Part shown: piece by piece, positions 46,524 to 57,539 of the stretch
Position numbering within the stretch: the stretch's first letter is position 1
Layout: each line of letters opens with the position of its first letter
Assembly: GCA_030726725.1 (NCBI GenBank)
Contig: JANRDC010000004.1
Span: forward strand, 62,001 to 126,000
Source: Flavobacteriaceae bacterium
Lineage (GTDB): Bacteria; Bacteroidota; Bacteroidia; Flavobacteriales; Flavobacteriaceae
DNA length: 64,000 nt
Direction of reading: 5' to 3'
The notes under the pieces: generated by a model
Told to the model about the DNA's origin: nothing
The model's input: only the letters and a program-made list of their open reading frames with translations
Databases searched by the model: none
Translations under genes and position numbers: made by a program

Positions 46524-47573
46524 ATGAGCATAACCCGAAATCGCATTGAGATATTGAGCCAGTTGGGACAGGAGATGAGTTTGATGGCCACTAAGCTCAC
46601 CGACCCATCCTACTCAGCTGATCCCATACTCGGTCCACTAATCGCCCAAACCACTGCAAAAAATGGTTGGTTTACCCCCGATCAAATCGCATATTGCCTC
46701 CGTCATTGGGGGGAACTCTTACAGCCCCATCATTTAGCCGAATGGGTAGGCGACATTGATTTTGCAGAAATCACCCAAACTACCGTGCTGATTATTGCCG
46801 CAGGAAATATACCCTTAGTCGGTTTTCACGATATTCTAGTCACCTATTTAAGTGGGCATCAGTGCGTGATTAAACCTGCGACTAACGATCAAGTGCTCAC
46901 CCCCTATTTTGTTCAAAGAATCGCTGAACTCGATCCCAAGAGCGCGTCAAGATTAATCATCACTCGTGAACTAGTTGGGTCGTTTGATGCGGTCATCGCC
47001 ACAGGAAGCGACAACAGCGCTCGATATTTCGACCATTACTTTGGGAAAAAGCCAAACTTGATCAGACGCAACAGGTTTTCATGTGCCGTGTTAACTGGAT
47101 CGGAAACCCAAGAACAATTGGCCCTGTTGGGTGATGATATATTCAGGTATTTTGGACTCGGATGTCGTTCAGTTGCTGCATTATGGGTGCCAGAAGGATA
47201 TGATTTTTCCTCATTTTTTGCCGGGATTTACTCGTGGTCCGAGGTGATCAATCACCACAAATACGCCAATAACTACGACTATAACAAAGCTGTGTACATG
47301 ATGAGCAACATTCCTTTGTGGGACAACGGGTTTTTGCTGCTCAAATCCGATTCCCGAGTGGGCGGATCCCCCATAGGCACCTTAAACTACCAGACCTATA
47401 GCTCCATAGATGAGGTGAATCAGTCATTGTTACTTCAAAAAGATCAAATTCAATGTGTTGTAGGACCGAGCGTCCTACCCAACGCTCTGGATTTTGGACA
47501 AACCCAAAGACCTCTACTTCACGATTATGCAGACGGAATTGATCCCATTAAATTTGTGTTATCGCTTTACTAA
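46524..47573 (+). CDS. Acyl-CoA reductase, LuxC-like
   Basis: The 349-residue protein is related to LuxC, which reduces acyl groups to aldehyde. Visible features are the NADP-binding-like GNIPLVGFHDILVTYLSGHQCVIKPATNDQ, a catalytic Cys candidate in RNRFSCAVLTGSE, and the LGCRSVAALWVPEGYD segment. No other lux genes (AB, D, E) are present, so bioluminescence is not implied; Bacteroidota often carry this orphan acyl-CoA reductase beside a ferredoxin and serC. The substrate is unknown. It is followed after 42 bases by serC. Confidence 0.86.
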   Translation: MSITRNRIEILSQLGQEMSLMATKLTDPSYSADPILGPLIAQTTAKNGWFTPDQIAYCLRHWGELLQPHHLAEWVGDIDFAEITQTTVLIIAAGNIPLVGFHDILVTYLSGHQCVIKPATNDQVLTPYFVQRIAELDPKSASRLIITRELVGSFDAVIATGSDNSARYFDHYFGKKPNLIRRNRFSCAVLTGSETQEQLALLGDDIFRYFGLGCRSVAALWVPEGYDFSSFFAGIYSWSEVINHHKYANNYDYNKAVYMMSNIPLWDNGFLLLKSDSRVGGSPIGTLNYQTYSSIDEVNQSLLLQKDQIQCVVGPSVLPNALDFGQTQRPLLHDYADGIDPIKFVLSLY

Positions 47574-47615
47574 CCCAATCTTTTATGCCAATTTTGTGGC
47601 GCAATTTTCTATCCA

Positions 47616-48677
47616 ATGAAACACAACTTTAGCGCAGGCCCTTGTATCTTACCCCGACAAGTCATTGAACGAGCAGCATCAGCGGTACTTGATTTTAATC
47701 AGTCTGGATTGTCTCTTATAGAAATCTCACACAGATCTAAAGATTTTGTGGCGGTTATGGATCGAGCTCAAGCATTGGCATTAAAGCTGTTGGGACTTGA
47801 AGACAAAGGTTATCAAGCACTTTTTCTACAAGGAGGGGCTAGTCTTCAATTTGCCATGGTGCCCATGAATCTTTTTCACCACAGTGCTGCCTATTTAGAT
47901 ACAGGTACTTGGAGTACCAAAGCCATTGAAGAAGCCAAAAGAATGGGGACAACCCATGTTATGGCCAGTTCGGCGGATCGAGGATATCGATATATCCCTG
48001 AAGGATTTGAAGTGCCCAAAGGCGTTGATTATGTTCATTACACCTCAAACAACACCATATACGGCACACAGATGTCTATTTTTCCCAAAGCAGATGCCCC
48101 CATGGTCTGCGACATGAGTTCTGATATCTTTTCCAGACAACTCGATTTTGAACAATTTGATTTGATCTATGCTGGGGCTCAAAAAAATATGGGGCCTGCA
48201 GGGGCCACTCTAGTGGTGGTAAAAGAATCAATCCTCAAAAAGGAAAAAGGTGTTTTGCCCGCTATGTTGGATTACCAAGCGCATATCAAAGGTGAAAGTA
48301 TGTACAATACTCCCAGTGTTTTTGCGGTATACGTATCCATGCTCACCTTGGAATGGTTGGATCAATTAGGCGGAATAGCCAGCATTGAACCTAAAAATCA
48401 AGAAAAAGGAAGACTGATGTACGAGGCCATCGACAACAGTGCGTTGTTTGAAGGTTATGCCCACACAAAAGACAGGTCATTGATGAATGCCACTTTCAAT
48501 ATCAAACAACCTGAACTTGCCTCAAGATTCAATGAACTGCTTAAAGAAGCTGGCATAGAAGGCCTAGCAGGGCATCGCTCCGTGGGAGGTTACCGAGCCT
48601 CTATGTACAATGCACTGCCATTGAGCAGTGTTCAAGTGCTGACAGAGGTGATGGGATACTTGGAACAAAAAGGATAA
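47616..48677 (+). CDS. serC: Phosphoserine aminotransferase
   Basis: SerC converts 3-phosphohydroxypyruvate and glutamate to phosphoserine in serine synthesis. Conserved motifs are FSAGPCILPRQVIE, EISHRSKDFVAV, FLQGGASLQFAMVP, the PLP-lysine in YAGAQKNMGPAG and the C-terminal GHRSVGGYRASMYNALP. Length 353 residues is standard. It is followed 1 base later by serA, forming the core serine pathway unit. Confidence 0.96.
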   Translation: MKHNFSAGPCILPRQVIERAASAVLDFNQSGLSLIEISHRSKDFVAVMDRAQALALKLLGLEDKGYQALFLQGGASLQFAMVPMNLFHHSAAYLDTGTWSTKAIEEAKRMGTTHVMASSADRGYRYIPEGFEVPKGVDYVHYTSNNTIYGTQMSIFPKADAPMVCDMSSDIFSRQLDFEQFDLIYAGAQKNMGPAGATLVVVKESILKKEKGVLPAMLDYQAHIKGESMYNTPSVFAVYVSMLTLEWLDQLGGIASIEPKNQEKGRLMYEAIDNSALFEGYAHTKDRSLMNATFNIKQPELASRFNELLKEAGIEGLAGHRSVGGYRASMYNALPLSSVQVLTEVMGYLEQKG

Positions 48678-48678
48678 T

Positions 48679-49647
48679 ATGCGTATTTTAATCAATGATG
48701 GACTGGATCAGGCGGCCATAACGGCTTTAAGTGAAGCAGGTTTTACACTTGATCTGACGCGGGTAGCTCAACCGCAATTGATCCCCTACATCAACCAACA
48801 CCAAATTCAGGGAATCATTGTTCGCTCCGCTACTCAGATCACGGCTCAAGTGATTGAACAATGCCCGAGTGTGGAGTGGATAGCGCGTGCTGGTGTTGGT
48901 TTGGACAACATCGATGTGTCAGCTGCCAAAAAGCGCAAAATCCCAGTGATCAATACACCAGGAGCCTCTGCCCAAGCTGTAGCTGAACTAGCCATGGCCC
49001 ACCTATTGGGTGGGGTGCGTTTTCTTCACGAATCCAACAGAAACATGCCTTTGGTGGGAGACACCGATTTTAAAGCGCTTAAAACAGCCTACCGGGGAAA
49101 AGAATTAAGTGGAAAAACTGTGGGAATCGTCGGATTTGGTGCCATAGGGCAATCCATGGCTAAACTTTGTTTGGGTATGGGAATGCACGTGATTTTCTGT
49201 GATCCAGAGGTCGACCAGGTGACGCTTTCGTGGACCATCGGGAACAACACTCCTGTGTCTATTCATCTACAAAGCACCACCAAAGAAATCGTGTTGGCAC
49301 AATCCGATTATATCAGCCTTCACTTACCCAATCAAGAAAAACCATTTTTGGACAGAGATGCATTTGCCGCTGTAAAACCCGGTGTGGGGATCATCAATAC
49401 GGCACGTGCATCTGCCATTGATCACCAAGCGCTGCTTCAAGCCTTGGATCGCGACATCGTCTCCTTTGCCGGATTGGACGTTTATGAAGATGAACCAAAT
49501 CCCAAACTGGGCATACTCATGCACCCAAAATTGTCGCTCACCCCGCATATCGGAGGGAGTACTGAGGAAGCACAATCGCGCATAGGAATTGACTTAGCCG
49601 GGCAAATCATCCAAAAATTCACCCCAAACCCTATTGATGTTTCGTAG
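48679..49647 (+). CDS. serA: D-3-phosphoglycerate dehydrogenase, short form
   Basis: SerA oxidises 3-phosphoglycerate in the first step of serine synthesis. The 322-residue protein has the NAD-binding domain (GKTVGIVGFGAIGQSMAKL), the substrate-binding region (WIARAGVGLDNIDVSAAKKRKIPVINTPGASAQAVAELAM), the catalytic Arg in IINTARASAID, the Glu in LDVYEDEP and the His in LTPHIGGSTEE. No ACT regulatory domain is present, so serine feedback inhibition of the classical type is unlikely. Together with serC it gives two of the three pathway enzymes; serB is not in the window. Confidence 0.93.
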   Translation: MRILINDGLDQAAITALSEAGFTLDLTRVAQPQLIPYINQHQIQGIIVRSATQITAQVIEQCPSVEWIARAGVGLDNIDVSAAKKRKIPVINTPGASAQAVAELAMAHLLGGVRFLHESNRNMPLVGDTDFKALKTAYRGKELSGKTVGIVGFGAIGQSMAKLCLGMGMHVIFCDPEVDQVTLSWTIGNNTPVSIHLQSTTKEIVLAQSDYISLHLPNQEKPFLDRDAFAAVKPGVGIINTARASAIDHQALLQALDRDIVSFAGLDVYEDEPNPKLGILMHPKLSLTPHIGGSTEEAQSRIGIDLAGQIIQKFTPNPIDVS

Positions 49648-53016: not shown

Positions 53017-54276
53017 ATGAACATTTGCCTACGCCAGGCGACCATCGTCGATACTACACAAAAAGAACACCACGGTCAAAAAAGAGATATTTTGATAGAA
53101 GGTGGGGTCATCAAAGCGATACAATCATCCATCACTCCACCTGATGGGTGTACCGTGATCGAGCGAGACAACCTACATGTATCGCCCTCTTGGATGGACA
53201 CTGGCGTCTGTTTTGGAGAACCTGGATATGAGGCTAGGGAAACCATCGCACAAGGCTTAAAGACAGCGGGATTAAGCGGTTTCGGACAGGTGCTCTTACT
53301 GCCCAATACGCTGCCTATACCGGATCAGACCAACACATTGGCCATGATGCATCAAAAAGCAGCCCACTGCGTTGTTGGACTTAAAACCATCGGTGCGCTG
53401 ACCAAACAATGCAATGGACATGATTTAGCTGATCTATTCGATATGTACCAGTCAGGAGCGGTCGGTTTTTTTGATTACAAAAAACCGATTCAAAACAGTC
53501 ACCTGCTCAAAATTGCCCTTCAGTACACCCAAGTATTTAACGCTCGTGTTTGGAGCTATCCACTTGATGCAGCCATGCACCACAAAGCAGTAGCCCATGA
53601 AGGCACCGTATCCACCTCCTTGGGATTAAAAGGCAGTCCAGCACTGGCAGAAGAACTCCAAATCAGCAGAGATTTATCGGTATTGGCCTACAGTGGAGGT
53701 AAATTGCACATTCCCACAATTTCAACAGCCAAAGCTGTAGAATTAATTGGTGAAGCCAAGGCTAAAGGATTAGATGTCACCTGTAGTGTCGCTATTCACC
53801 AGCTTTGGGGAGATGAATCTGCCCTGCTTGAATTCGACACGAATACCCATTTAATGCCTCCTTTACGCACCCTAGAAGATCAACAAGCGCTGATACAAGG
53901 CCTATTAAGCGGAGTTATAGATTACGTGACCTCAGACCACAACCCACTGGATACTGAGCTCAAAAGAATAGAGTTTGATTTATCCACTCCTGGATCCTTA
54001 GGTTTAGAAGCTGCTTTTGGGGTACTCAATCAAAAGTTAGGTATGGATCAGGCGGTCACCTTACTGCAAAAAGGGAAATCAGCATTTGGATTTTCAAATT
54101 ATCAAATCGCTGTTGGTCAACCAGTTGACATGAGTCTATTCAACCCTAACGTCAAGTACACCCAACAGTTGAATGACTTGTACAGCACCGCCAAAAACAG
54201 CCTGTATTTAGGTGCTGAATTAACGGGCAAGGCCTGGGGAGTGATCACCCAAAAAGGGATGTTGATCCATGAATAA
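53017..54276 (+). CDS. Dihydroorotase homologue lacking the usual metal ligands
   Basis: The 419-residue protein follows the type I dihydroorotase layout: MNICLRQATIVDTTQKEHHGQ, VTSDHNPLDTELKRIEFDL, and SLGLEAAFGVLNQKLG. However, the usual D-x-H-x-H metal motif reads WMDTGVCFGEPGYE, so both first-shell histidines are missing. The usual HcEd site reads WSYPLDAAM, and the usual H-V-S-T site reads IPTISTA. Only Asp (GFFDYKK) and the Asp of SDHNPL remain. This pattern fits non-catalytic dihydroorotase homologues, such as those that act as structural partners of aspartate transcarbamoylase. The annotation 'dihydroorotase' would be doubtful. No pyr genes are adjacent. Confidence 0.85.
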   Translation: MNICLRQATIVDTTQKEHHGQKRDILIEGGVIKAIQSSITPPDGCTVIERDNLHVSPSWMDTGVCFGEPGYEARETIAQGLKTAGLSGFGQVLLLPNTLPIPDQTNTLAMMHQKAAHCVVGLKTIGALTKQCNGHDLADLFDMYQSGAVGFFDYKKPIQNSHLLKIALQYTQVFNARVWSYPLDAAMHHKAVAHEGTVSTSLGLKGSPALAEELQISRDLSVLAYSGGKLHIPTISTAKAVELIGEAKAKGLDVTCSVAIHQLWGDESALLEFDTNTHLMPPLRTLEDQQALIQGLLSGVIDYVTSDHNPLDTELKRIEFDLSTPGSLGLEAAFGVLNQKLGMDQAVTLLQKGKSAFGFSNYQIAVGQPVDMSLFNPNVKYTQQLNDLYSTAKNSLYLGAELTGKAWGVITQKGMLIHE

Positions 54277-54589
54277 AATACCCGGACAAAAAATTGCTTT
54301 ACTGGCCTACATCACCATTTTTGGTGCATTGATGGCCATGAGCATGAACAATGAGCCTCAGTATGCTCATGCTAGGTTCCACACACGACAAGCTTTTGGC
54401 ATACACCTTTTGTTTCACGCCATGGTGTTGGTGCTCCCCTACTGGATTGGATTATACGGACTTTTGGCGATTTACCTGATTTACTTCATTTTCATTGCCT
54501 TTGGAATCGCGGATGCCTTGAGCGGTAAACAACGACTCCTGCCTGGGATAGGCACCTATTTCCAACGCTGGTTTACTTTTGTTTCATGA
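54269..54589 (+). CDS. Small membrane protein of unknown function
   Basis: The 106-residue product has about three hydrophobic segments (residues ~7-25, 45-60 and 62-82, for example IGLYGLLAIYLIYFIFIAFGI), with a positively charged loop HARFHTRQAFGIH between the first two. The general layout resembles DUF4870-like proteins, but I cannot assign a family firmly. Its start overlaps the dihydroorotase-like gene by 8 bases and its end overlaps the esterase gene by 4 bases, indicating co-transcription. Confidence 0.65.
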   Translation: MNKIPGQKIALLAYITIFGALMAMSMNNEPQYAHARFHTRQAFGIHLLFHAMVLVLPYWIGLYGLLAIYLIYFIFIAFGIADALSGKQRLLPGIGTYFQRWFTFVS

Positions 54590-56078: not shown

Positions 56079-57539
56079 ATGGCTTCTGTTTTAAAAATGG
56101 AAATGGAATTTAACGATGTTCCCTCCATCAAGGCTAAAACCCTAAGGATCAATCTCAACCCTGATATATACGGAACGTTTGCCGAAATCGGTGCAGGTCA
56201 GGAAACTGCGCGTCATTTTTTTAGGGCTGGAGGTGCATCAGGAACCATCGCCAAGGCGATGAGTGCCTATGATAAAGATTTCAGCGATGCTATATACGGA
56301 TTGGAGGAAGATGGTCGCTATGTCACTCAATCGAGATTGACCAAAATGCTCTCCCATGAAATGAATTTAATGGAAGAGCGCATCAGCAAAGAAAAACATC
56401 CCAATAAACTCTTCTTTGCCTACGCCAATACAGTAACCACCATCGATTTCGCAAAACAATACAAGGGTCATGGCTGGGTCGGCATCAAGTTTCAACTAAC
56501 GCCAAACCAAAAACAATACAACGAAATCATCCTGCACATACGCTTTAAACAAAATGAAGCGAGATTACAACAGGAAACCTTGGGTGTATTGGGGGTAAAC
56601 CTGATCTACGGAGCTTTTTACGCACACCACAAGCCCAAAAGCTTGCTCAAATACCTTTATGATCACTTGGATAAAGACCTGTTAGAAATTGACATGATCA
56701 ATTTTTCCGGTCCGGATTTCAAACATGTGGACAACAGATTGATGAGTCTTCAGTTGATCAAAAACGACATGACCGATGCCGTTATGTTTGACCCATCTGG
56801 CGTAAACCTGTTGCCTGCCGCTGTGTTGTACAAGAAAAACATCATGGCCATCAGAGGTAGTTTCCGACCTGTGACTTTGGTGAATGAGGACATGTATCAA
56901 AAATCATTGAACATGTTCCTCAATGAATCCACTGTGGACCCCAATAACACCATAGTGCTGTTTGAAATCACCCTGTCCAACCTCAAGGTTTCAGGAGAAA
57001 TCGATGAACGCGACTTTCTGGACAGGGCTGAGCTGCTCTGTGCCCTAGGCCATACGGTGTTGATTTCTAAATTCCAGGAGTATTACAAGCTGGTAGAATA
57101 CTTTAACGAATACACCAAAGCGCGTATTGGTCTTTCCATGGGGGTAAACAACCTAGTAGCGATCTTTGATGAAAAGTACTACAGACACCTCAGTGGAGGA
57201 ATCCTTGAAGCCTTTGGAAAACTATTCTTTAAAGATCTAAAGGTCTACCTATACCCGATGATCGATGAAGAAACTGGAGATTTGATCACGAGCAACAACA
57301 TGCAGGTTCACCCTAGGATGCGCGAGCTATTCAAGTTCTTTAAATACAATGGCAAAGTGGTAGACATTGTCGATTACGACCCAGAAATCTTGAATATTTT
57401 CTCAAGAGATGTTTTGCAAAAAATCAAGAACAACGAATCTGGCTGGGAAAATATGCTCCCAGAGATTGTCGCAGAACAAATCAACAAAAAACAACTTTTC
57501 AGAGATCTTGAAGGCAGGGAAATCCCTGAGCTTTCTTAA
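56079..57539 (+). CDS. Conserved Bacteroidota protein of unknown function
   Basis: The 486-residue product has no signal peptide, no membrane segment and no motif I recognise as catalytic. Highly conserved-looking stretches include YGTFAEIGAGQETARHFFRAGG, NKLFFAYANTVTTIDFAKQYKGHGWVGIKFQL, NFSGPDFKHVDNRLMSLQL and RIGLSMGVNNLVAIFDEKYYRHLSGGILEAFGKLFFKDL. I recall closely similar proteins throughout Flavobacteriia that carry inconsistent labels such as 'TonB-dependent receptor' or 'nicotinate-nucleotide adenylyltransferase'; neither fits, as there is no beta-barrel, plug or nucleotidyl motif. The gene has its own promoter and stands alone between MBL and bcp, whose 3' end overlaps it by 4 bases. 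Confidence 0.85.
   Translation: MASVLKMEMEFNDVPSIKAKTLRINLNPDIYGTFAEIGAGQETARHFFRAGGASGTIAKAMSAYDKDFSDAIYGLEEDGRYVTQSRLTKMLSHEMNLMEERISKEKHPNKLFFAYANTVTTIDFAKQYKGHGWVGIKFQLTPNQKQYNEIILHIRFKQNEARLQQETLGVLGVNLIYGAFYAHHKPKSLLKYLYDHLDKDLLEIDMINFSGPDFKHVDNRLMSLQLIKNDMTDAVMFDPSGVNLLPAAVLYKKNIMAIRGSFRPVTLVNEDMYQKSLNMFLNESTVDPNNTIVLFEITLSNLKVSGEIDERDFLDRAELLCALGHTVLISKFQEYYKLVEYFNEYTKARIGLSMGVNNLVAIFDEKYYRHLSGGILEAFGKLFFKDLKVYLYPMIDEETGDLITSNNMQVHPRMRELFKFFKYNGKVVDIVDYDPEILNIFSRDVLQKIKNNESGWENMLPEIVAEQINKKQLFRDLEGREIPELS

Follow-up and report, generated by a model that had tools for sequence, protein, structure and literature searches.

A dihydroorotase homologue without its metal site as a probable structural subunit of aspartate transcarbamoylase in Bacteroidia

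A flavobacterial gene for a dihydroorotase (DHO) homologue that has lost its metal site, here called pyrC', probably encodes a non-catalytic, DHO-like subunit of a class A2 aspartate transcarbamoylase (ATCase), the gene having moved away from pyrB. It lies in a stretch of 64,000 nucleotides of a Flavobacteriaceae genome, referred to below as the window. On this account dimers of the product (PyrC', a pseudo-DHO) would join two PyrB trimers to each other, giving a dodecamer of six PyrB and six PyrC' chains, and the bridging would stabilise the catalytic PyrB trimer; both complex formation and stabilisation are inferred. Dihydroorotate would be made by a DHO of the PRK09236 type. The history would begin with an ancestral pyrB-pyrC pair whose products formed a class A1 complex, with both ATCase and DHO active. 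Catalysis would then have passed to a second DHO; the first would have lost its metals and yet been retained because PyrB depends on it, and its gene would have moved away from pyrB. The sequence-only reading of the window had left a choice between a structural ATCase subunit and a new role. The former appears the better choice because orthologues adjoin or overlap pyrB, because PyrB and PyrC' tend to be lost or replaced jointly, and because a replacement DHO is present where the site is lost.

The open reading frame runs exactly from 53017 to 54276 on the forward strand, starts with ATG and encodes 419 aa. The TIGR00857 DHO model scores the product at 254 bits, under its cut-off of 279; a Pfam scan gave no match to it, whereas the intact DHO copy of the same genome did match; the best solved sequence relative is the Aquifex aeolicus DHO (E 1.5e-50). 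An AlphaFold2 model, for which the input alignment included 35 flavobacterial orthologues (mean pLDDT 85.8), predicts a full-length DHO homologue with the type I fold: Foldseek places it with the Bacillus anthracis DHO (4yiw) and with ATCase-bound Aquifex DHO (3d6n, 4bjh) at TM ~0.9, the value for chains 3d6n_A and 4bjh_A being 0.90. This structural comparison, which the sequence-only reading had proposed, bears out its claim that the fold-defining segments are intact over 419 residues. Compared with its orthologue in genome G005, the gene shows dN ~0.10 and dS ~1.35-1.7; it is under strong purifying selection (dN/dS ~0.06-0.07), so that the retention of a degenerate PyrC' is more than chance.

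The gene is followed on the same strand by a 106-aa ORF without family match (54269..54589), which shares 8 bp with the 3' end of pyrC' and has a homologue downstream of pyrC' in 80/80 named flavobacterial loci, and by a gene for a phospholipase/carboxylesterase-family protein (PF02230; 54586..55257, +), part of an operon-like run in 78/80 loci. Elsewhere in the window, positions 56079-57539 encode a 486-aa protein with no Pfam or NCBIfam match, which is found in 63/80 named loci at 77% median identity and is conserved above its neighbours; an acyl-CoA reductase (LuxC family) gene, then serC-like and serA-like genes, occupy 46524-49647.

What has been lost is the metal and substrate site. The former HxH site and first loop, residues 59-75 (WMDTGVCFGEPGYEARE; 53191..53241, +), align with Aquifex so that H61, H63 and R65 correspond to G63, C65 and G67, and it is this segment, normally D-x-H-x-H-F-R-E-P-G, that had been read as altered. 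A P-G-x-E-x-x-E stretch within the same residues is almost invariant. Three further ligands are replaced on the forward strand: the bridging Asp153 by Y154 (53476..53478), His180 by Y181 (53557..53559) and His232 by T234 (53716..53718), the two histidine changes also agreeing with the earlier claim. The substrate residue Arg65 is thus lost, and His309 has become L311, while Asn95 (N97) is kept, as is D307 (= Asp305; 53935..53937, +), the sole metal ligand retained. A catalytic type I DHO has an HxH pair, a bridging Asp/Lys, two His and an Asp; in PyrC' one of these six ligands is left. The sequence-only reading was right about the motif, with one small correction: the Asp of ‘FDYK’ aligns with Aquifex D152 and not with the ligand D153. 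As Aquifex DHO remains functional without H180 and H232 (PMC3880350), it is the loss of H61, H63 and D153 that is decisive. Misalignment hiding intact ligands was ruled out, since the pattern is consistent over 80 named flavobacterial orthologues: all 80 have S/G at 61, S/C/A/N at 63, G at 65 and T at 232 (Aquifex numbering), position 180 lacks His in 79/80, and no alignment was found that restores the ligands elsewhere. In the degenerate set the former ligand columns are mostly among the more variable, in contrast with their invariance in active orthologues. To judge from these alignments, PyrC' would have no residual DHO activity.

It is the metal pocket that has decayed; nearby loops are conserved yet poorly predicted in the lone chain. 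Three segments of the model fall below pLDDT 50 (residues 69-72, 188-206 and 315-322), and P69, E195, G203 and K316, which lie within them, are invariant across the degenerate set. The second segment is encoded at 53578..53634 (+); the third forms most of a conserved loop, residues 314-322 (53956..53982, +), in which E314 is better conserved among degenerate than among active proteins. Three loops of Aquifex DHO lack order in the free protein and gain it in the complex with ATCase (PMC3880350). The low-confidence loops of the PyrC' model approximately match these loops A-C, as might be expected of a subunit that becomes ordered at an interface.

The genome of the window has a second DHO, of PRK09236 type with an intact site (G000:C6, L001); the search for an intact second pyrC-type gene that had been suggested thus found one, and the possibility that PyrC' is the lone DHO is ruled out. 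A single PyrB scores over the cut-off, on a contig (G000:C18) other than that of pyrC', where it adjoins a PyrR-like ORF. PyrI was found in none of 100 genomes, comprising the window's and relatives, which rules out a PyrI-type (class B) ATCase. By gene content, then, the genome has PyrB and a separate active-type DHO without PyrI, as a class A2 enzyme would. Linkage of pyrC' to pyrB is absent here; among degenerate copies it is found only in independent ones of another family (f25, below), with pyrC' ~2 kb from pyrR-pyrB in family f9. Adjacency to pyrB is, however, a feature of gene order and lies outside the definition of the class A2 complex.

In these same 100 genomes, PyrC' occurs in ~88 and PyrB over the cut-off in 91. 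Counted jointly by hand, with the fragmentary G006 set aside, 85 genomes have both and five neither; three have PyrC' without detectable PyrB (G065, G070, G074), two have a native PyrB without PyrC' (G094, 94% complete, and G008, 64% complete), and four, all of one genus (f5), have a foreign PyrB and no PyrC'. The association of native PyrB with PyrC' gives a Fisher p of 7e-9, uncorrected for kinship. Genomes G062 and G069 and the f16 symbionts are without both proteins. The f5 PyrB is 43% identical to the window's (two of the four genomes read), against 75-87% for the natives read within the taxonomic order; its gene (L173, L182) adjoins car genes and is close to arg genes, in genomes where PyrC' is lost. 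Where native PyrB has been lost or replaced, pyrC' is mostly gone as well. The missing PyrB of G065, G070 and G074 may reflect recent loss or an assembly gap; at least G070 retains an active-type DHO despite having no detectable PyrB.

A wider sample of the phylum (198 genomes, >=90% complete; 49 Bacteroidia and 149 others, with family and class labels deduced from named orthologues) extends the picture. PRK09236 DHO scores over the cut-off in 47/49 Bacteroidia against 2/149 others. Among the 46/49 Bacteroidia in which a strong PyrC-like match was read, 45 carry the degenerate PyrC'; the 46th (G170) has an intact pyrC next to a pyrB of divergent sequence (47.7% identity), with neither PyrC' nor a PRK09236 DHO over the cut-off, and its pyrC was probably acquired. 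No strong PyrC-like protein was found in the remaining Bacteroidia, G064, G077 (f5) and G262, the last of which is missing both native PyrB and PyrC'. Outside the class, 45 aligned representatives, together with Aquifex, keep all six ligands, and in many families intact orthologues lie directly downstream of pyrB, often within tens of bases. Two exceptions are degenerate: f25, of a different class, where the copy overlaps pyrB by 4 bp in 4/4 genomes and a further DHO-like protein is present, most of whose ligands align; and G193, whose degenerate L198 is accompanied by a PRK09236-like protein at 457 bits, under the cut-off. Degeneracy thus goes with the presence of another DHO, and the degenerate f25 gene is still coupled to pyrB. 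A FastTree analysis joins the class-wide degenerate proteins (support 99) in a group that includes L198 but not f25. It does not resolve the deeper PyrC branching, so that orthology and gene order, more than tree position, are what speak for a probable origin of this group from an ancestor linked to pyrB. PyrI scores over the cut-off in this sample only in G291 (L119/L122), beside a second, divergent PyrB. The sequence-only reading had noticed neither the class-wide spread nor the BatA-domain gene to which pyrC' is coupled in relatives (described below); a literature search for such a protein in Bacteroidetes returned nothing relevant.

Several known systems invite comparison. The class A2 pseudo-dihydroorotase is described for Pseudomonas putida, P. 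fluorescens and P. aeruginosa (PMC7053772, and Schurr et al. 1995 as cited there); the PyrB chain of P. aeruginosa is monomeric and inactive without it (PMC7053772). Like that protein, the Bacteroidia PyrC' resembles a type I DHO over its full length but lacks the metal ligands, and occurs in genomes with a separate active DHO; unlike it, it belongs to another phylum, is unlinked from pyrB and is coupled in many relatives to a BatA-domain gene. The Pseudomonas PyrC' is needed for active ATCase, a role that its Bacteroidia counterpart, compared with it here by published description, would share. The class A1 DHO-ATCase of Aquifex (3d6n, 4bjh) is among the closest in predicted fold and supplies the closest solved sequence relatives, and its conserved flexible loops have their likeness in PyrC' (PMC3880350); Aquifex DHO, however, is catalytic once bound to ATCase, whereas the ligands of PyrC' are gone. 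The PRK09236-type DHO (Porphyromonas gingivalis 2gwn; L001 here) shares superfamily and pathway with PyrC' but has an intact active site and forms a separate lineage in the tree; it is the probable replacement. In fungal Ura2/CAD-like proteins a non-catalytic pseudo-DHO domain is a structural element of ATCase (PMC7053772); both it and PyrC' are DHO-like and non-catalytic, the one a fused eukaryotic domain and the other a free protein.

The subunit reading has to contend with the separation of pyrC' from pyrB, seen in the window's genome and almost throughout the class, with the genomes noted above that carry one protein without the other, and with a different neighbour. In much of the class a gene for a protein of 640-690 aa with an N-terminal BatA domain, a VWA-like membrane protein (L070:5262-7193, L210:4007-6001 and others; alignment A4), lies directly upstream of pyrC'; the two overlap by 4 bp in 40 named loci and are close in many more, from several families. 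In much of the class pyrC' is translationally coupled to this gene rather than to a pyrimidine gene. One could suppose that PyrC' has ceased to serve PyrB and was recruited to the membrane protein, for instance as a scaffold on the cytoplasmic side of an envelope complex; the three genomes without detectable PyrB do keep PyrC' together with the BatA-domain gene. We think this unlikely. The long BatA-domain protein is absent from the window's genome, where a serine carboxypeptidase gene stands upstream of pyrC', and PyrC' persists without it, PyrB being present, in three lineages (G000/G002; G071; G068/G081/G092). Conversely, two class members that lost or replaced native PyrB (G262, G170) keep the BatA-domain protein while PyrC' is absent, and outside the class (G248, G129) it occurs in genomes whose pyrC keeps its site and forms a pair with pyrB. 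The coupling may then be a genomic relocation, perhaps with a regulatory or second role. A compromise, that the pseudo-DHO has two partners and links ATCase to the BatA-domain protein, which would tie pyrimidine synthesis to an envelope complex or place it under that complex's control, seems a little less likely again; a search of the literature for BatA together with DHO gave no relevant result.

Two other readings start from the altered site itself. PyrC' might still be an enzyme for the DHO reaction, or for that of some other amidohydrolase, and work with an unusual metal site or with none: the Pseudomonas paralogue PyrC2 was reported to be DHO-active without zinc residues (PMC2770081), and Asp307 and Asn97 are retained. 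But most of the former ligand columns are among the more variable ones, Arg65 and His309 have gone as well, and a dedicated intact DHO exists in the same genome, so that we consider it very unlikely. It is scarcely credible that PyrC' is a functionless, decaying leftover duplicate, as the lost site and the second DHO might by themselves imply: a pseudogene is contradicted by the strong purifying selection, and class-wide retention and the several invariant residues of the degenerate set also count against it.

If PyrC' is indeed an ATCase subunit, a whole bacterial class would run the first committed step of pyrimidine synthesis on a class A2 enzyme, which to our knowledge is known only from Pseudomonas and its relatives. 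The shift of a DHO from a catalytic to a structural part would also have occurred more than once, with another DHO present each time. For annotation, family models are likely to label such proteins dihydroorotase. The Bacteroidia protein would then be a clear case in which the chemistry was lost and the enzyme kept for its architecture.
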